The translations under genes were made by a program, and so were the position numbers. A model generated the notes under the pieces. That model was not told where the DNA came from. It saw only the letters and a list, made by a program, of their open reading frames with translations, and ran no database searches. From positions 1-49,393 of IMG/VR virus record IMGVR_UViG_3300027708_000107: a stretch of 49,393 bases of DNA; one strand, given 5' to 3'. This document shows positions 4,297 to 45,700 of the stretch, in pieces (within the stretch, counting starts at the first letter, position 1; every line of letters begins with the position of its first letter). The stretch is from a virus.

Positions 4297-4588
4297 TTAT
4301 TTGTAACCATTTACATCGTGTGGATATGCAATCAACTCAGTTTTAAGTTTAGTTTCATTATCTTGAATCCATTGTTTGCCGTCAGGATCGGTTGTAAAAC
4401 ATACAAAATCTGGCCGATTCATAATTTTATCAATTATATGATCAAGATTTTCTAAATCTCTTAAAATTGGATCTCTTTTAATGACGTCAAATCCTGATTC
4501 ATTAGAAATCCAAAATAACAGGAGAGCTGGATATTCCTGTTTACGAATAAAATCTATGATGAATTCTTTCCGATCTTTTTTTAGACAT
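4297..4588 (-). pseudogene. small gene with one-base frameshift at an A7 run
   Basis: ATG at 4586-4588 overlaps the stop of the upstream gene, which is typical coupling in this phage. The ATG frame closes after about 15 codons. One base away, the frame is open for about 95 codons (...DRKEFIIDFIRKQEYPALLF...) to the TAA at 4297. The shift lies at AAAAAAA (4574-4580); with six A residues the protein would start MSKKDRKEFIIDF and be about 96 residues. A sequencing error, a real mutation or slippage could explain it. Confidence 0.65.
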
Positions 4589-5306
4589 TTGTGTTTGTTT
4601 CAATTTCATAATGTAAAATATGGTTGCTTAGAATGATATATTCCCCAGATTTATAATCATACTTTTCAATTACTGCTTGAATTGTTTCATTATCAATGGT
4701 CAGAATTTTCACACGACCGTCAGTATAAGCATCTGGTTCCAAATAGTTATATGTAGCAGCACTAGCATATTCATTAATAGTACTTTGTTTCAAATCTCGT
4801 AAAGCATATCGCAGAGTTTTATCTTCGAGTAATGTTAGAAAATATGGAGCTTTCTCAAGTTGATGTTGTGTTAATCGAAAATTTGGAGGGTCATCATCAT
4901 TATCATTTCCAAGGAAAATCCAAGAAGATTCTGAAATCATGAAATCCATCAAACCTTCATCAGTATCGAGTTGAGGATTTTCTTTAATCCAAGTAGAGTA
5001 ATGTTCTGTTCCATTATCGACATACCAGAATTGATCTGTTCGAGGTTGTAGAAGCTCAAAGTTATATTTTCTGGAAAGCCGTACCATTCTATCAAATAAA
5101 GGATGATTCTGGTTATTATGAACTAAAGCCCAGAAGTAAGATGCTTTGGTTACAAAATCGTTAAACCTGACAAATTCCCAACCAAAAAACTTTCCCTCAA
5201 TTTCAAGACCATCTACAGAAGATTTTCTTGTATAAGAAGTGTCGATTGCTACGGAATGTGTTGACGAAGAATTTGTTTCCCACACGGATTTTCTAATTGT
5301 TTTCAT
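4581..5306 (-). CDS. 'NSSST' family protein, paralogue 2
   Basis: A 241-residue protein beginning MKTIRKSVWETNSSSTHSV, the standard form of this motif. The body is acidic and aromatic. Its start overlaps the stop of the small membrane gene at 5303-5482 (ATGA), and its stop overlaps the ATG of the frameshifted gene, so the three are translationally coupled. Function unknown; compare 1202-1741. Confidence 0.8.
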   Translation of the reverse strand: MKTIRKSVWETNSSSTHSVAIDTSYTRKSSVDGLEIEGKFFGWEFVRFNDFVTKASYFWALVHNNQNHPLFDRMVRLSRKYNFELLQPRTDQFWYVDNGTEHYSTWIKENPQLDTDEGLMDFMISESSWIFLGNDNDDDPPNFRLTQHQLEKAPYFLTLLEDKTLRYALRDLKQSTINEYASAATYNYLEPDAYTDGRVKILTIDNETIQAVIEKYDYKSGEYIILSNHILHYEIETNTNV

Positions 5307-14662: not shown

Positions 14663-15392
14663 CTTGAGCTTTAAATATTGTCAAACATTTTACTGACTCA
14701 GCACCAGCTTCTTGTAATGTTTGAAAAATAGATACTAAACTTGAACCGGATGCAATAACATCATCAATGATTAACACTTTCTTACCCTCAAATTTCTTTG
14801 CATTGCCAGTATACGAAAACACATTCTTGAGAAACTTTCTGTAAGGAGGAAGAACCCATTTCATTTGAAAATACCCAAGTTTTACACCTCTCCGAATAGA
14901 TGACTCTAATTTCTTAATAGTAGAATCTGATAACTTCTTTGATTCAAGATCTAGTGTAATTTTGGAAGGATCTTCAGCTTTTACAAAAGAATCTAGAAGA
15001 AACTCAATTCCTGGATTTCTTTCTTTAATTTTCTGGGCGAAATCTTTAGTTAAAGATGAAGATGATTTCGGAGTAACAATGATATCGACATTTAAATCTC
15101 GAATAATTTTTGTTGCATACACAGCCGATCTATTAAGAAACTGATTATAGGCACTAACATCAATATGCATAGCTTTCAAGCGTTTAAGAATGATTGTTGC
15201 ATCTGCCCCTTTTGAAGTATATAAATTAAAAACATCCAATGTAATACCTTCAATATTTTTTGTGTGTGGTTTTAATTCACTTTTACCGAATCTTAGATTG
15301 ATTAGATCTCCAGCTTTAGACTCATAATCAATAATAACTTGATTATCGGAATTCAATGTCATTGATTCCACGAATTGCAGAAATGATTTCAT
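14658..15392 (-). CDS. phosphoribosyltransferase-like protein with leader
   Basis: I start at ATG 15392 (MKSFLQFVESMTLNSD), giving 244 residues; the longer frame would run into an RNA gene. The leader MKSFLQFVE/S closely resembles the T4 capsid-targeting sequence. Near residues 201-213, VLIIDDVIASGSS is the PRPP-binding loop of type I phosphoribosyltransferases, preceded by FEGKK and followed by LVSIFQTLQEAGAESV. These enzymes transfer a ribosyl-5-phosphate group; the acceptor is unknown. Possibly packaged in the head. Confidence 0.7.
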   Translation of the reverse strand: MKSFLQFVESMTLNSDNQVIIDYESKAGDLINLRFGKSELKPHTKNIEGITLDVFNLYTSKGADATIILKRLKAMHIDVSAYNQFLNRSAVYATKIIRDLNVDIIVTPKSSSSLTKDFAQKIKERNPGIEFLLDSFVKAEDPSKITLDLESKKLSDSTIKKLESSIRRGVKLGYFQMKWVLPPYRKFLKNVFSYTGNAKKFEGKKVLIIDDVIASGSSLVSIFQTLQEAGAESVKCLTIFKAQV

Positions 15393-15410: not shown

Positions 15411-15481
15411 TGGTGGAACTGCCGGGAATCTCACCCGGATCCACAACATTATTCATGTTATGTCGAAATAAATTCAGCCCC
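15411..15481 (-). ncRNA. tmRNA-like acceptor domain lacking a message domain
   Basis: A 71-nt element. The 5' end GGGGCTGA, five bases, then TTTCGAC matches the 5' end of tmRNA (GGGGCUGA...UUCGAC). The 3' end CAGTTCCACCA matches the tmRNA acceptor strand and pairs with GGGGCTG (two G-U). A T-arm CCGGG/CCCGG is present. Where tmRNA has about 300 nt of pseudoknots and message, there is only a 7-bp hairpin (ATAACAT/ATGTTGT). An odd tRNA is the alternative. Confidence 0.5.
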
Positions 15482-15491
15482 TTTTTTAAAA

Positions 15492-15565
15492 TGGCATAGC
15501 ATGTAGGTAACGATCCCACGCCAAGAAGTTTGGAATTTCTGGTTCTACCATTGAACTAATGCTAT
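15492..15565 (-). tRNA. tRNA-Trp(CCA)
   Basis: Acceptor ATAGCAT/ATGCTAT (7 bp), discriminator G, encoded CCA, D-arm GTTC/GAAC, anticodon loop TTCCAAA. The T-loop is ATCGTTA instead of TTCRANY. Confidence 0.8.
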
Positions 15566-15574
15566 ATTTAAAAA

Positions 15575-15647
15575 TGGTCCGCGCCATGCCAACGCACATG
15601 GATAGGCAGATTCGCAGTCTGCGACATTACTCTTATGCTACGCTCGG
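15575..15647 (-). tRNA. tRNA-like, anticodon GCG (Arg), degenerate
   Basis: Anticodon arm GCAGA/TCTGC with loop CTGCGAA and D-stem GCAT/ATGT are good; CCA is encoded. The acceptor has mismatches and the T-loop has eight bases (TGCGTTGG). Function doubtful. Confidence 0.5.
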
Positions 15648-15655
15648 TTTAAAAT

Positions 15656-15730
15656 TGGTGCCTCTAGTAGGAGTTCAACCTACTTCATCAGTTTCGAAGA
15701 CTGAGGTCCTATTCGGTAGACGATAGAGGC
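15656..15730 (-). tRNA. tRNA-Arg(TCG)
   Basis: Acceptor GCCTCTA/TAGAGGC with ACCA, D-stem GTCT/GGAC, anticodon stem TCAGT/ACTGA, loop CTTCGAA (anticodon TCG), T-stem GTAGG/CCTAC. Decodes CGA. Confidence 0.85.
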
Positions 15731-15739
15731 ATATGAAAA

Positions 15740-15964
15740 TTACTCATTAGACAAACTATATGAATGCACTGCATTATAACCTGCAATCCAAATTCCAAGA
15801 ACATGTTCAAGATTTTCTGGAGTTGTTTCAAGATTTAATTTTTTAAGAACCTTCTTAATAATATTTTTATCTACTTGAGTCAATCCCATGAAATTATGAA
15901 CTAATCCACCTCTTTCTGATAAGACAGCTTCAGCGGCTTCTGATATTGATGATCGTTGTAACAT
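15740..15964 (-). CDS. small late protein with leader-like N-terminus
   Basis: A 74-residue protein from ATG 15964 (MLQRSSISEAAEAVLSERGG); a longer frame exists, but this ATG is 5 nt after a TATAAATA box and the N-terminus shares the 'EAAEAxL' pattern of other late genes, with LSE/R. The rest is helical (VDKNIIKKVLKKLNLE, then HVLGIWIAGYNAV). It sits inside the tRNA block. Role unknown. Confidence 0.65.
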   Translation of the reverse strand: MLQRSSISEAAEAVLSERGGLVHNFMGLTQVDKNIIKKVLKKLNLETTPENLEHVLGIWIAGYNAVHSYSLSNE

Positions 15965-15969
15965 AATAT

Positions 15970-15977
15970 TATTTATA
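15970..15977 (-). promoter_or_regulatory. T4-type late promoter, 5 nt from ATG
   Basis: TATAAATA on the minus strand, 5 nt before ATG 15964; it decides the start of that gene. Confidence 0.75.
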
Positions 15978-16020
15978 TATTTTGAGAAACTTTCTATTGC
16001 TGGATAGAACATGAAATTAA

Positions 16021-16115
16021 TTCCTATGTCCTGAATCTAACAGATCAAGATAAGGCATACAAGCCACAAGCTACCCGTTCTACATATAGTGTCGGACCTC
16101 TTGAATAACATAAGA
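16021..16115 (-). ncRNA. tRNA-like element, identity unclear
   Basis: Ends pair as TCTTATG/CATAGGA (7 bp plus one more). A T-arm-like stem CTTGA/TCAGG has a 10-nt loop and a GGC/GCC mini-stem sits in the middle. No CCA. A normal anticodon arm cannot be drawn. Confidence 0.35.
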
Positions 16116-16119
16116 AAAA

Positions 16120-16195
16120 TGGCGGAACCGACCAGTTTTGATCTGGCTGCCTCCTAAGTGACAGTTAGGTGCTCTCCCGATTGAGCTACGGTTCC
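16120..16195 (-). tRNA. tRNA-Asp(GTC)
   Basis: Acceptor GGAACCG/CGGTTCC, G, CCA encoded; anticodon stem CCTAA/TTAGG with loop CTGTCAC; T-stem GCCAG/CTGGT with loop ATCAAAA. Confidence 0.9.
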
Positions 16196-16201
16196 GTAAA
16201 G

Positions 16202-16276
16202 TGGTCCCGGTGGAGAATTTTGAAATCTCAACCTATCGCTTATCGAGCAATTACTCTGCCTTTGAGTTACACCGGG
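16202..16276 (-). tRNA. tRNA-Ile(GAT)
   Basis: Acceptor CCCGGTG/CACCGGG, A, CCA encoded; D-stem ACTC/GAGT; anticodon stem ATTGC/GCGAT with loop TCGATAA. Position 33 is C instead of U, which is unusual. Confidence 0.7.
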
Positions 16277-16286
16277 AATTAAAAAG

Positions 16287-16360
16287 TGGTACTCCTAACC
16301 GGGCACGATCCGGTCTCTAATCCTTGAAAGGGATTTGTTCTACCGCTAAACTATAGGAGC
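16287..16360 (-). tRNA. tRNA-Glu(TTC)
   Basis: Acceptor GCTCCTA/TAGGAGT, A, CCA encoded; anticodon stem AATCC/GGATT with loop CTTTCAA; T-stem ACCGG/CCGGT with loop ATCGTGC. Confidence 0.85.
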
Positions 16361-16580: not shown

Positions 16581-16654
16581 TGGTGCCCCTAGCAGGAATT
16601 AAACCTACGTTCTCGCTTTAGAAGAGCGGAGTCCTTTCATTAGACGATAAGGGC
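16581..16654 (-). tRNA. tRNA-Arg(TCT)
   Basis: Acceptor GCCCTTA/TAGGGGC, A, CCA encoded; D-stem GTCT/GGAC; loop CTTCTAA; T-stem GTAGG/CCTGC. Decodes AGA, useful in an AT-rich genome. Confidence 0.9.
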
Positions 16655-18381: not shown

Positions 18382-18456
18382 TGGTCCCCCCGGTTGGTGC
18401 TGCCCCAACGACCTACCGATTATGAGTCGGGTGCTCTCCTGTTGAGCTACAGGGGG
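18382..18456 (-). tRNA. tRNA-Met(CAT), elongator-type or Ile2
   Basis: Acceptor CCCCCTG/CGGGGGG, A, CCA encoded; D-stem GCTC/GAGC; loop CTCATAA; T-stem GTTGG/CCAAC with loop GGCAGCA. The fully paired acceptor makes it an elongator; a lysidine-modified Ile tRNA is the alternative. Confidence 0.85.
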
Positions 18457-39693: not shown

Positions 39694-41547
39694 ATGATAT
39701 CATTTCGCCAATTTATTTCCGAAGATGTAGCTTCTCAAGAACGTCAAGCTCTTAACATTCTTAATAGAAACCATATTAAAGATCCTGAAGACGTTTTTAA
39801 TGATCTTAAAGCTATTACCGAACCATATCAGGCCGGTGATAATATAACAAGACCTGCAAGAAATCAAGCTCATCTTCCTAAACTTGCTGAATTTCTTTCG
39901 AAAGGAAAAATTAAGATTAACACTTTAAAGGCCTATTATGATAGGTATATTAAGAATCCAAAATTAAATAAGACGGCAATAGTTAACTTTAAAGACTTTA
40001 GAGAGTTTGAACAATTTGTTGATGAAAATGAGGTAGTTAAGATGTCAGATCATGATTCTAGAAATAATAAAATTTCCGAAAAGAATGCTATCTATCATGA
40101 TAGCGAAATAGATGTTTATCTTGGAGACACCAAGCAAGCCTGTATGCTTTATGGGCAAGGATCTAAGTTTAATTTATGTATTTCCAGAAATGATTCTAGT
40201 AATCTATTTCATGATTATAGATGGAAACATGAACTTACTACTTACTTTGTATACTTTAAAGAAGCCGGGGTTAATAATCCTAATTTTATTATCGTAGATG
40301 CTTCTAAAAAATCTCCTAAAACGTTTAGCTATAATATAATCAAACCTAATTCTGATAAAAATATATCAAAGGAAAATCTTATTACGAAATTCCCGCAATT
40401 AAAAACCGCAATGGAAAAGGGTATCTTTAAACATAAGAAAATTGAAGGAGATGAAAAGAAATATTATATAAAATATCATGGTAAATCTATTACAGATTTT
40501 TCAACTCTAGATGATAGAATTAACTTTATTGAAATGGGGGAAGAAATTGAAGGTAATCAATGGTCTAAATTAGGAGATATGGTTCCTAAACTGTTACCTT
40601 ATTATATTGAAATCGGACATGATATTCCAAAGGAAGTACTTGATAAGAATACATCTTTTAAAAAACGATATGAACAAAAGTTACAACAAAGAGTTCAAAT
40701 GAATCTTGATGATAATACTGATCTTGATGATTATACAAAAGATGAACTAGAATATGCTTTAAGAAATAATGATAGGGTAAAAGATAAGATAAAGCAGATA
40801 AGCAAACTAGAAGAACTTAAAATAAGAAACGAACTAGTTAATGGGATATATAAAGGAGATATAAGAATTAAATCTAAATATATATTACCAAATCTATCTG
40901 ATATTGTAGTTAGTGGAGATTTTTATTGTCCTTATAATAAACTTACATCTTTAGAAGGAGCTCCTAAAGAAGTTGGTGGAGATTTTAATTGTTCTAGTAA
41001 TAAACTTACATCTTTAGAAGGAGCTCCTAAAGAAGTTGGTGGAGATTTTTATTGTGATAATAATAACCTTACATCTTTAGAAGGAGCTCCTAAAGAAGTT
41101 GGTGGAGATTTTTATTGTTCTAGTAATAAACTTACATCTTTAGAAGGGGGTCCAAAAGAAGTTGGTGGATATTTTAATTGTGATAATAATAACCTTACAT
41201 CTTTAGAAGGGGGTCCAAAAGAAGTTGGTGGATATTTTAATTGTTCTGATAATAAACTTACTTCTTTAGAAGGATCTCCGCAAAAAGTTGGTGGATATTT
41301 TAATTGTTCTGATAATAAACTTACTTCTTTAGAAGGATCTCCGCAAAAAGTTGGTGGATATTTTAATTGTTCTGATAATAAACTTACATCTTTAGAAGGA
41401 GCTCCTAAAGAAGTTGGTGGAGATTTTAATTGTTCTGATAATAAACTTACATCTTTAGAAGGAGCTCCTAAAGAAGTTGGTAGAGATTTTTATTGTTCTA
41501 ATAATCTAGTCAAATTAGACTATAAAGCATGGTTGACAAAACAATAA
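39694..41547 (+). CDS. leader-bearing protein with leucine-rich-like repeats
   Basis: A 617-residue protein. The leader MISFRQFISE/D closely matches the T4 capsid-targeting sequence. Residues 20-400 form a helical and mixed region with an ACMLYGQGSKFNLCISRND segment seen in other jumbo-phage proteins. From residue 409 there are nine 21-residue repeats of the type [DY]F[YN]C-x-x-N-x-LTSLEG-x-P-x-x-VGG, plus a final half-repeat. Such repeats build a solenoid for protein binding. Possibly an injected effector or virion protein. Confidence 0.7.
   Translation: MISFRQFISEDVASQERQALNILNRNHIKDPEDVFNDLKAITEPYQAGDNITRPARNQAHLPKLAEFLSKGKIKINTLKAYYDRYIKNPKLNKTAIVNFKDFREFEQFVDENEVVKMSDHDSRNNKISEKNAIYHDSEIDVYLGDTKQACMLYGQGSKFNLCISRNDSSNLFHDYRWKHELTTYFVYFKEAGVNNPNFIIVDASKKSPKTFSYNIIKPNSDKNISKENLITKFPQLKTAMEKGIFKHKKIEGDEKKYYIKYHGKSITDFSTLDDRINFIEMGEEIEGNQWSKLGDMVPKLLPYYIEIGHDIPKEVLDKNTSFKKRYEQKLQQRVQMNLDDNTDLDDYTKDELEYALRNNDRVKDKIKQISKLEELKIRNELVNGIYKGDIRIKSKYILPNLSDIVVSGDFYCPYNKLTSLEGAPKEVGGDFNCSSNKLTSLEGAPKEVGGDFYCDNNNLTSLEGAPKEVGGDFYCSSNKLTSLEGGPKEVGGYFNCDNNNLTSLEGGPKEVGGYFNCSDNKLTSLEGSPQKVGGYFNCSDNKLTSLEGSPQKVGGYFNCSDNKLTSLEGAPKEVGGDFNCSDNKLTSLEGAPKEVGRDFYCSNNLVKLDYKAWLTKQ
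40918..41484 (+). repeat. nine tandem 63-bp repeats
   Basis: Nine direct in-frame copies of 63 bp, each coding 21 residues. Copies differ by a few silent and a few coding changes and fall into sub-types: GAPKEVGG, GGPKEVGG and GSPQKVGG endings; copies 6 and 7 are nearly identical. The pattern indicates recent expansion and shuffling. Confidence 0.9.
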
Positions 41548-43597: not shown

Positions 43598-44671
43598 TTA
43601 TGCATACGCCATGATTAGCCGAGTAAGATCATCATCTTTAATAGAAACTCCGGCAGCGACAGCACCACCGGCAATAGCAAGACCTCGGGATAATTTGCGA
43701 AGATTGGCGGATTGTTTAGAGTTGCCTTTACGAAGTAATTCAACTACATGTTTACGTTGAGCTAATGTTAATTGTAGACCATCTTCTAACTCCATATCTC
43801 CTACAATCTTATCCATGAAGTCATAAATCTCTTCTACTGTTGGATCAATGTCAATGATAAATGCTCTTGTACGAAGAGCTTTATCTGGATCTAATTTATC
43901 AAGAGACATATTAGAAATAAATATAATCTTTCCAGTAAATTCAAAATATCTAGGAATCATCCCAGCATCAAGAATTTCATCATCTGTCATTGTATCTGGA
44001 TCAACGACGTTCTTACCCATCTTATTCCATACGAGCTTGCGTTTTTTCTTAGTATCTGTTGCAGCTTTTAGAATATTACGTCCTTCTGTATCCCCAAAGA
44101 CATCATCTGAATCATCGAATAGAATAATTTTATCCTTATATCTGAATAACAGTGAATATAGACCAGCAGCCGAAGCAGAACCTGTATTTTTGAAATACCC
44201 CTTACCATCCTTAAGCCCCATGGAATGTAGGACTTTTTCAGTTGTGTGAGTTTTACCGGTATTGTGATGACAAATACCATTTGCTGTAAAATATAGATGA
44301 TCGGCTGAATCAATTTCAACATCATAATAATCCGAAACAGAATCTGAAATTATTATATTAATAATTTTCACATAAGATCCATCTTGCGTCATCACTTCAT
44401 CCCCAATTACTAAATCTCTTACTTGTAAACTTCCTTTACTTGTAGTTAATAGATGTACATCCGAACATTTAATAATTCGATCATCTTCAAATTTAACCAA
44501 TGTATCTTTACCAGGTTTAATAACAAATGATACAATCTTTGAACTTCCAGAAGGAGTATCGATTTTTATATTTAAGGAAGAAATATCATAAAATTTGAAA
44601 TGTTCTAGATAATCGCCATACAATTTTTCTGTAAGGTCTTTAATATCTTGTATTGTGTTAAGTTTTTTCAT
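43598..44671 (-). CDS. C-terminal half of split AAA+ ATPase with C-intein
   Basis: A 357-residue ORF. Residues 1-137 are the C-terminal part of an intein: block B-like KCSDVHLLTT, then YYDVEIDSADHLYFTANGIC and HHN, the block F/G ending with penultimate His and terminal Asn. From Thr138 the extein begins TGKTHTTEKVLHSM, followed by Walker B KIILFDDSDD, IIFISNM and an arginine-rich sensor region. No homing endonuclease domain is present. The partner is the ORF at 44816-45700. Confidence 0.9.
   Translation of the reverse strand: MKKLNTIQDIKDLTEKLYGDYLEHFKFYDISSLNIKIDTPSGSSKIVSFVIKPGKDTLVKFEDDRIIKCSDVHLLTTSKGSLQVRDLVIGDEVMTQDGSYVKIINIIISDSVSDYYDVEIDSADHLYFTANGICHHNTGKTHTTEKVLHSMGLKDGKGYFKNTGSASAAGLYSLLFRYKDKIILFDDSDDVFGDTEGRNILKAATDTKKKRKLVWNKMGKNVVDPDTMTDDEILDAGMIPRYFEFTGKIIFISNMSLDKLDPDKALRTRAFIIDIDPTVEEIYDFMDKIVGDMELEDGLQLTLAQRKHVVELLRKGNSKQSANLRKLSRGLAIAGGAVAAGVSIKDDDLTRLIMAYA
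44261..44671 (-). other. C-intein (137 residues)
   Basis: From the ORF start to Asn at 44261-44263. It bears all the features after block A of a mini-intein and ends NGICHHN before extein Thr. Confidence 0.9.
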
Positions 44672-44700
44672 TGATTAAATTTGATTTGGTCTCTATGATG

Positions 44701-44832
44701 TTATTTATATATTCCTAACAATCCTTCATTACATCTTCTAATAAAGAATTTTAGTACTTCAACCCATCCGAATATAACAATAAAAGAAACAAATAATATA
44801 AAGATATTTAATACTTTATTCCATAGTAGCAT
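44701..44832 (-). CDS. 43-residue single-helix membrane micro-protein (candidate)
   Basis: ATG at 44830-44832 lies inside the N-intein coding region in another frame. The product starts MLLWNKVLNIFILFVSFIVI and ends RRCNEGLLGIYK. One hydrophobic helix precedes a basic end. It fills the gap between the two intein halves and its stop coincides with a TATAAATA box. Translation is unproven. Confidence 0.4.
   Translation of the reverse strand: MLLWNKVLNIFILFVSFIVIFGWVEVLKFFIRRCNEGLLGIYK
44702..44709 (-). promoter_or_regulatory. T4-type late box 30 nt before the C-half
   Basis: TATAAATA on the minus strand between the two intein-bearing ORFs; would give the C-half its own late transcript. Confidence 0.6.
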
Positions 44833-45700
44833 TAATTTCCGTATCTGCTGATAAACAACCCCCAACACCAGATACAAATATTGCGTTAGACGCCCCTGAT
44901 ATTGTTAATTTAAGGAGATGTTCTAAGTCTGCCAACTGTTGTTCAAACGTAAGTTTATCAATCTTAGTTTCAAGAGTATCAATATCTTGAATATCTTCAT
45001 AAGTTTCTTTTGAAGAACCTTTAGTAATCTTACCTGTAACGATACCAATAGAATCTGTAATATCATCAAGATCCTTCATAATATTTTGAAGTTGTTTTGG
45101 TGTGCCTGTCCATTCATAATCAACACCATTCTTAACGATTTCCTTTGAATATGTTGTAAGAAGATAATCAAAAATCTTAATTCCAGGTGATGCATATTTA
45201 GCTCTTACATCCCCTTTGCTTGCGCCTGGACCAGAAATCATATCGAGTATACCAGAAAGAATATCTTTTGGTGTATCTCCTCTAGCTTCATTCAGAGGAA
45301 TTCCATCAGGCATTGTATTAATTTCTCCAGTATAACCGTTAGCTGATATAATATCTGCAATAACAGGAAGTGTCTTTATAAGCGATACTTCTTTATCAAA
45401 CTCTATATGATATGGTCTGGCACTTTCTCCATTCCAGAAATCAACAGATTCTAAACCACTTAATCCGATAGAATTGGATAACGACCAATTGAATCGGATA
45501 GATTTACTATCTTTAGTACTATAAAACCGAATACCTCGACCCTTACCAGACTCGTTTTGATATACTTCGACCCCGGCAGATTTAAAGAATAATAATCCGG
45601 TTTTCTTTTGAAGATATTTTGTAATGATCAGACCAGCCTTCTCAGCTGAACTTGAAGTCATTGCTTCGACAATACATGGTTTGAAACTTAAATTGCTCAT
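44816..45700 (-). CDS. N-terminal half of split AAA+ ATPase with 13-residue N-intein
   Basis: A 294-residue ORF. Residues 1-281 are the extein, a mixed N-terminal domain ending SNAIFVSGVGG. Then CLSADTEINATME is intein block A (Cys1, then DTEI), and the ORF stops. Joined to TGKTHTT from the next ORF the product reads GVGGTGKT, a perfect Walker A motif. The full ATPase would have 501 residues. A late box lies 8 nt before the ATG. It sits next to the gp41-like helicase gene. Confidence 0.9.
   Translation of the reverse strand: MSNLSFKPCIVEAMTSSSAEKAGLIITKYLQKKTGLLFFKSAGVEVYQNESGKGRGIRFYSTKDSKSIRFNWSLSNSIGLSGLESVDFWNGESARPYHIEFDKEVSLIKTLPVIADIISANGYTGEINTMPDGIPLNEARGDTPKDILSGILDMISGPGASKGDVRAKYASPGIKIFDYLLTTYSKEIVKNGVDYEWTGTPKQLQNIMKDLDDITDSIGIVTGKITKGSSKETYEDIQDIDTLETKIDKLTFEQQLADLEHLLKLTISGASNAIFVSGVGGCLSADTEINATME
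44819..44857 (-). other. N-intein (13 residues)
   Basis: CLSADTEINATME: Cys1 and the DTEI of block A, then the stop codon. It is one of the shortest natural N-inteins that I know of. Confidence 0.85.

Follow-up and report, generated by a model that had tools for sequence, protein, structure and literature searches.

A message-less tmRNA, reduced to its tRNA-like domain, in the tRNA array of a T4-like phage and its relatives in viral contigs

Trans-translation is the main bacterial ribosome rescue pathway, and alanyl-tRNA synthetase (AlaRS), EF-Tu, and SmpB recognize features that are kept by an RNA consisting of the tRNA-like domain (TLD) of tmRNA only. A phage gene of this kind has been described in the ssrA of Mycobacterium phage DS6A, which comprises little more than the TLD (Mao et al. 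2009, as related in excerpts of PMC4131195 and PMC11915505). In the table contained in the excerpt of PMC4131195 (2014), DS6A alone among the phages is listed as 'TLD only', and the same excerpt states that tmRNA is strongly inhibited by a TLD molecule similar to that of DS6A, regardless of whether this molecule can be charged, with titration of SmpB as a possible cause. The excerpts of PMC11915505 (2025) repeat this inhibition and name no TLD-only phage beyond DS6A; they further describe message-less organelle tmRNAs, found in mitochondria and in Mallomonadaceae plastids (~65 bp), and state that a mitochondrial tmRNA without the frame probably still aids with incomplete mRNAs. In the mostly open-access literature that we searched, there was no wider report of phage TLD-only tmRNAs, an absence that is no proof.

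Here, we describe a further element of this kind, located in the window, by which we mean the whole stretch of 49,393 nucleotides that was analyzed. The contig is that of a marine-type, T4-like phage in which T4-like replication genes are present.

Anatomy and setting of the window element

On the minus strand, positions 15411-15481 of the window read GGGGCTGAATTTATTTCGACATAACATGAATAATGTTGTGGATCCGGGTGAGATTCCCGGCAGTTCCACCA, and these 71 nt are a complete tmRNA TLD and nothing else, as assigned from sequence, folding, the Rfam tmRNA model (RF00023), and a structural descriptor. The 5' strand of the acceptor stem, GGGGCTG (15475-15481), pairs at 7/7 positions with the 3' strand, CAGTTCC (15415-15421), and includes G-U pairs at 3-70 and 4-69, with the discriminator A (A73) and an encoded CCA completing the 3' end (15411-15414). 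G3-U70 is the main alanine identity pair. The TTCGAC motif, which is the D-loop analogue of tmRNA, lies at 15462-15467, and a P2 hairpin with 8 bp and a loop of only 5 nt (15442-15462) replaces the message and the pseudoknots, as judged from folding and from P2 covariation in the family. This hairpin is in the tmRNA register, as the C of TTCGAC and the initial G of the GGAY linker form a pair. The linker itself is GAT (15439-15441; GGAT with the preceding G), and it leads into a T arm (15422-15438) made of a 5-bp stem and a 7-nt non-canonical loop, TGAGATT, which departs from the usual TTCRANY. There is no tag reading frame, and there are no pseudoknots.

In terms of stability, the folding energy is -24.8 kcal/mol with a z-score of -3.14, and 0/200 shuffles were equally stable (here, 15412-15482 was folded, which is shifted by one base from the element). 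A descriptor that combines TTCGAC with a 7/7 acceptor, a 6/6 P2, and a 5/5 T stem has a single match in the window, namely at 15411-15481 on the minus strand, and none in 1000 simulated windows of the same dinucleotide content, searched on both strands with 15184 TTCGAC occurrences. The coordinates, the 71-nt size, and the tmRNA-like 5' and 3' ends given in the first-pass annotation of this DNA were thus exact, and its proposal of a tmRNA-like acceptor domain without the message is borne out by the anatomy and by the poor fit of tRNA models described below. It had also recognized the G-U pairs at 3-70 and 4-69, but its doubt about their placement relative to tRNA-Ala falls away, since one G-U is precisely at the tRNA-Ala position and the second adjoins it. 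What it had called a 7-bp hairpin is really the 8-bp, 5-nt-loop P2 helix of tmRNA, as seen from the folding and the alignment.

In the covariance search that had been suggested as a check, the 374-position RF00023 model matches over its whole length at the exact place of the element, but with 32.9 bits against a cut-off of 47; the E-values of this model are weak evidence on their own, as archaeal controls match too and the T arm of the tRNA-Thr in the window gets 15 bits (1e-5). The tRNA model (RF00005) finds no match at the element even at E<=10, and the bacterial mode of ARAGORN called none of 135 elements (that of the window plus 134 others). No better normal-tRNA fit with a clear anticodon therefore emerged. 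The permissive mitochondrial mode of ARAGORN calls the window element as tRNA-Ile(aat), which would be in keeping with a D-armless tRNA whose anticodon arm is the P2 hairpin. Yet this mode calls just 15 of the 135 elements and with scattered anticodons, the putative anticodon of the window element is preceded by a G rather than a T, the stem has 8 bp, and core lengths vary from 14 to 40 nt across the family; together with the silence of RF00005 and of the bacterial mode, this makes a D-armless tRNA very improbable.

We also considered that the element could be the acceptor half of a permuted two-piece tmRNA, since the model of that class (RF04321) gives a weak match (18.3 bits against a cut-off of 47) and our search pattern also catches the permuted tmRNAs of alphaproteobacterial genomes. 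However, the 5' end of the element comes before its 3' end, the P2 halves close on themselves, and a protein gene is the next feature past the CCA. Moreover, none of 232 family elements (the window not being among these) is followed within 400 nt by another GGGG..TTCGAC 5' end, and the same check downstream of the window element was clean. An acceptor half of this type is, accordingly, hardly credible.

The element resides within a phage tRNA array. Its upstream neighbor, 10 nt away, is tRNA-Trp(cca) (15492-15565, minus strand; ARAGORN and Rfam), and downstream, 18 nt separate it from the inferred start, at 15392, of a phosphoribosyltransferase-domain gene (PF00156; 14658-15392, minus strand), all being on one strand; the mechanical open reading frame of this gene begins at 15449, within the element. 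Several other features of the window can be recorded here. Odd T loops with an A for the usual first T occur in Rfam alignments of the array tRNAs at 15492-16360, examples being ATCGTTA (Trp), ATCAAAA (Asp), and ATCGTGC (Glu), and three tRNAs detected by Rfam (16205-16276, 16584-16654, and 18385-18456) are missed by ARAGORN. The window also encodes an RtcB RNA ligase (PF01139; 9519-10736) and a radical-SAM protein that by eye is RlmN-like (weak PF04055; 2364-3323). Judged partly by eye, this pair, the tRNA array, and the tmRNA-like RNA portray a phage occupied with translation and RNA repair. At 43598-45700, a P-loop ATPase has by eye the look of a split intein, in that a first open reading frame ends in ...GVGGCLSADTEINATME and the next has an intein-like stretch that ends in HHN, with TGKT directly after it; such an intein would have an unusually short N-terminal half, and Pfam returned nothing for the second frame. 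Lastly, a protein at 39694-41547 contains numerous, nearly identical repeats of the LTSLEGAPKEVGGDFNCSSNK type.

Relatives in viral contigs and genome assemblies

A strict pattern search of IMG/VR recovered three viral contigs, one with an 82-nt element (L003), one with an 80-nt element in another tRNA cluster that scores above the RF00023 cut-off at 69.4 bits (L004), and a second record of the window's own phage (L005), which as the same phage was omitted from later counts. The sole close relative of the window element is found on one contig, 99.96% identical. With a looser pattern (at least 120 matches), 95 of the 125 matches listed had a 7/7 acceptor and a 5/5 T stem, and nearly all the rest were well below this on one or both stems. 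A further scan left positions 3, 4, 69, and 70 free, its listed matches being a lower bound. When the listed matches were pooled and de-duplicated, the 7/7 and 5/5 stems were present at 112 of the 160 viral places and at 12 of the 24 places in genomes, and gave 93 distinct sequences, including one (L192) that later turned out to belong to a permuted tmRNA. The structure of the other 48 viral places fails on these stems, six of them having 7/7 acceptors but odd T arms.

Two complementary IMG/VR scans, with the GGAC linker and the CCA fixed, were run to completion and covered 114 and 118 stretches. Of their 233 matches, 232 pass the 7/7 and 5/5 test, and these comprise 134 distinct elements of 64-90 nt, a lower bound because the window element, with GGAT, is outside the GGAC class. 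In all, the message-less form occurs in at least 232 IMG/VR contigs, and the union of all scans contains at least 161 distinct elements (including L192).

Elements were also found in genome assemblies, these being from Pseudanabaenaceae LEGE 13415, Tissierellia, Clostridiaceae, Acidimicrobiaceae, Victivallales/Lentisphaeria, Hydrogenophaga, and an uncultured bacterium. Another is in a 130604-base contig of Prochlorococcus AG-409-P03; a virus contig of equal size in IMG/VR has a match at the same offset. A contig of the Victivallales assembly (L180) has a tandem pair of message-less tmRNAs at 4393-4473 and 5098-5178. Among the 23 stretches of this genome scan, five were chance matches (L171, L175, L177, L185, and L187), six were permuted alphaproteobacterial tmRNAs according to Rfam (L173, L183, L184, L188, L190, and L192, with L192 left out of later counts), and two were classed as such by likeness (L178 and L182). 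In the permuted genes (L173, L178, L182-L184, L188, L190, and L192), a second GGGG..TTCGAC-like sequence directly precedes the acceptor part.

BLAST searches reached three further cases. Stenotrophomonas virus Jojan60 has an 83-nt element, lacking any RNA annotation, before a primase gene, and in Streptomyces phage BRock, a tRNA array that also has RNA ligase genes includes an 81-nt element lacking the CCA. Both elements score above the RF00023 cut-off; LR756511, at 137 nt, is an intermediate form. The remaining hits of the INPHARED search, for which the window element and six family elements served as queries, were mostly the T-arm ends of full, permuted, or attachment-site tmRNAs. No short form surrounds the match in CcrSC, CcrPW, XacN1, Cp1R7A-A1, Marzo, and Tunturi_4; in the last two, the 3' part is followed by a tmRNA 5' end. 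RpAliso has the permuted arrangement, GMA2 and Phrappuccino have the long form, and ESSI-2 and MR13 have only weak matches that adjoin integrase genes. As a separate observation, pistol ribozymes occur in two stretches with message-less tmRNAs (L103, 6093-6154; L186, 1621-1716) and in a stretch of Gordonia phage GMA2 with tRNA and full tmRNA genes (L201, 943-999).

Conservation was gauged on a MAFFT alignment of 43 sequences, taken from 73 as those with 14 nt ahead of TTCGAC, a motif that is invariant there but was demanded by the search patterns. Over all helices, 98.4% of the cells pair, and the covariation score is 0.649, as against 0.150 +- 0.014 for shuffled and 0.083-0.152 for slid alignments. 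Since the acceptor and T stems were selected for pairing, which inflates covariation, P2 alone is the fair test; here, 95.3% is paired, and the score of 0.869 compares with 0.232 +- 0.031 after shuffling and no more than 0.223 after sliding. As the sequences are related, the shuffle counts are not probabilities, and it is the slid controls that retain the relatedness. In the set from the completed scans, at least five of the first six P2 positions are paired in 126 of 134 elements, compared with 18.9% when the 5' and 3' halves are re-dealt, and two of the other elements have cores too short for this rule. Ala-started frames that run to a stop occur in 35 of the 134, with 33.4 expected from shuffling, and so there is no excess of tag frames.

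G3-U70 is present in all 93 distinct elements among the matches listed, but most scans forced it. It is found in 16/16 distinct elements from loci first found with 3-70 free, where 4-69 varies (13 G-C and 3 C-G), and it is also kept in Jojan60, BRock, and LR756511. Among the 93 listed, the linker is GGAC in 79, GGAA in seven, and GGAT in four; the double G-U at 3-70 and 4-69 of the window element recurs to give a total of two, and its TGAGATT T loop is the only one. In 133/161, the T loop conforms to the usual pattern (T, Y, Y, R, A). Unusual loops include GGCAGTA, which seemingly also occurs in permuted tmRNAs of Sphingomonadales, and so, on this sequence likeness, the message-less forms may stem from more than one tmRNA lineage.

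With regard to gene neighborhoods, an ARAGORN tRNA lies within 500 bp of 17 of 122 elements among the matches listed, on the same strand in all 17, as compared with 138 of 2440 random places in the same stretches. Based on genes shared within 4 kb, the listed matches fall into at least 50 groups (two or more shared) or at least 31 (any shared), the window being alone in both cases. Most elements of one 18-contig group share a single base with the end of a gene that by eye resembles a small terminase subunit, and other groups have, again by eye, replication or ribonucleotide-reductase genes near the element.

These data bear on the possibility that the element is a relic, which the first-pass annotation had entertained, or junk; a tmRNA gene whose center was lost would then have stayed in a tRNA array by chance. 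For the kind, such an origin is disfavored because the elements are widespread and covarying: all three helices are intact, compensatory changes are seen in the family, the size class recurs across the gene-content groups, and most elements lie away from tRNAs. The window copy could still be one, because its sole close relative is the 99.96% identical contig; its low score and odd T loop point the same way. Overall, we regard a relic as improbable.

Proposed function

We favor a role as a decoy or inhibitor of trans-translation as the mechanism of a TLD-only tmRNA, with a probability of roughly 0.6. Here, the RNA would amount to that half of tmRNA which accepts alanine and faces SmpB, with a short P2 hairpin as its closure, and to judge from its sequence, the window element has the features needed for a decoy of SmpB or AlaRS. 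We infer that it is transcribed with the tRNA array and processed in a tRNA-like manner, and it would then be charged with alanine via G3-U70, A73, and CCA and be bound by host SmpB and EF-Tu. Competition with host tmRNA might occur off the ribosome, through SmpB titration, or else on stalled ribosomes, where the nascent chain would be accepted and no message offered. The outcome would be less trans-translation and tagging during infection, and the phage might benefit, as a guess, by having proteins from broken mRNAs stay untagged. By analogy, the reported inhibition by a similar TLD (PMC4131195) would be strong support for the kind and indirect support for the window copy.

Several points count against inhibition. 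The window copy is below the Rfam cut-off, has an odd T loop, and is without an independent relative showing constraint. According to the classical view, some phages need tmRNA, which runs counter to an inhibitor. When 45 element-bearing records were searched with RF00023, the element was found in 41 (above the cut-off in 38), and a full-size tmRNA in one (G006; 392 nt with an unusual tag according to ARAGORN), which has a message-less element too. This argues against simple SmpB titration, as a competitor would hinder the phage's own full tmRNA as well. In favor of inhibition, on the other hand, are the anatomy and the chance control, the P2 covariation, the retained G3-U70, the lack of a tag, and the RF00023 matches to most elements. 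On this side, too, SmpB was found in none of 46 records (44 of which carry elements, L036 and L046 having chance matches only), and the 109-kb record of the window's phage has neither SmpB nor a full tmRNA. Since most of the records are fragments, these absences, like that of the RF-1 domain given next, are soft.

Alternatively, the RNA might serve as a minimal rescue RNA, in which an alanyl-TLD with SmpB takes over the stalled peptide, and a GGQ factor (ArfB-like) or peptidyl-tRNA hydrolase then releases it untagged, with phage proteins from broken mRNAs escaping degradation as a consequence. All the charging features are kept, the mitochondrial frame-less tmRNA offers a likely precedent (PMC11915505, in excerpt), and in G005, among 45 records, the element is followed ~1.2 kb downstream, on its own strand, by an open reading frame of 116 aa with a GGQ-type RF-1 domain (PF00472, 38.7 bits). 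Still, the RF-1 domain is absent in the other 44, though many are fragments, and by the excerpt of PMC4131195 a similar TLD is inhibitory even if not chargeable; we thus find a minimal rescue RNA rather unlikely.

Returning to inhibition or diversion of rescue, we give even odds to the broader proposition that message-less tmRNAs commonly serve phages as a device for shutting down or re-routing host ribosome rescue, one that unrelated phages have picked up on many occasions and that has been taken for a single curiosity as it goes unseen in ARAGORN-based annotation. Phage surveys (PMC9004378 and PMC7162821, in excerpt) used ARAGORN, and the failure of its bacterial mode to see any of the 135 elements is an annotation blind spot that plausibly explains the gap in reports. 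Given the wide occurrence of these elements, which extends from the viral contigs to two named phages and to contigs from assemblies of cyanobacterial, clostridial, Lentisphaeria-type, and other origin, an RNA-mimic attack on ribosome rescue becomes directly testable.

Comparison with known systems

Compared with bacterial tmRNA (RF00023), the window element has in common the acceptor with G3-U70, the TTCGAC motif, the start of P2, the GGAY linker, the T arm, and the CCA. It differs in having no resume codon, tag, or stop and no pseudoknots, in its length of 71 nt versus 374 model positions, and in its score under the cut-off. A small acceptor piece is likewise a part of the permuted two-piece tmRNAs (RF04321 and RF01849; in phages, e.g., Melnitz), but their reversed gene order and separate message piece are both lacking in the window element. 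The message-less tmRNAs of organelles are similarly a TLD without the message; however, they are organelle-encoded, serve the cell itself, and have no phage link. Closest in description, which is the sole basis of this likeness, is the DS6A ssrA as given in the excerpts cited above, since it too is a phage gene that approximates the TLD alone without a tag frame. In contrast, the host of DS6A is Mycobacterium, whereas the window is from a phage with T4-like replication genes. The TLD-only kind is therefore already known but barely documented, with the window element being a further member, and what is new is the wide occurrence of this form in our scans.
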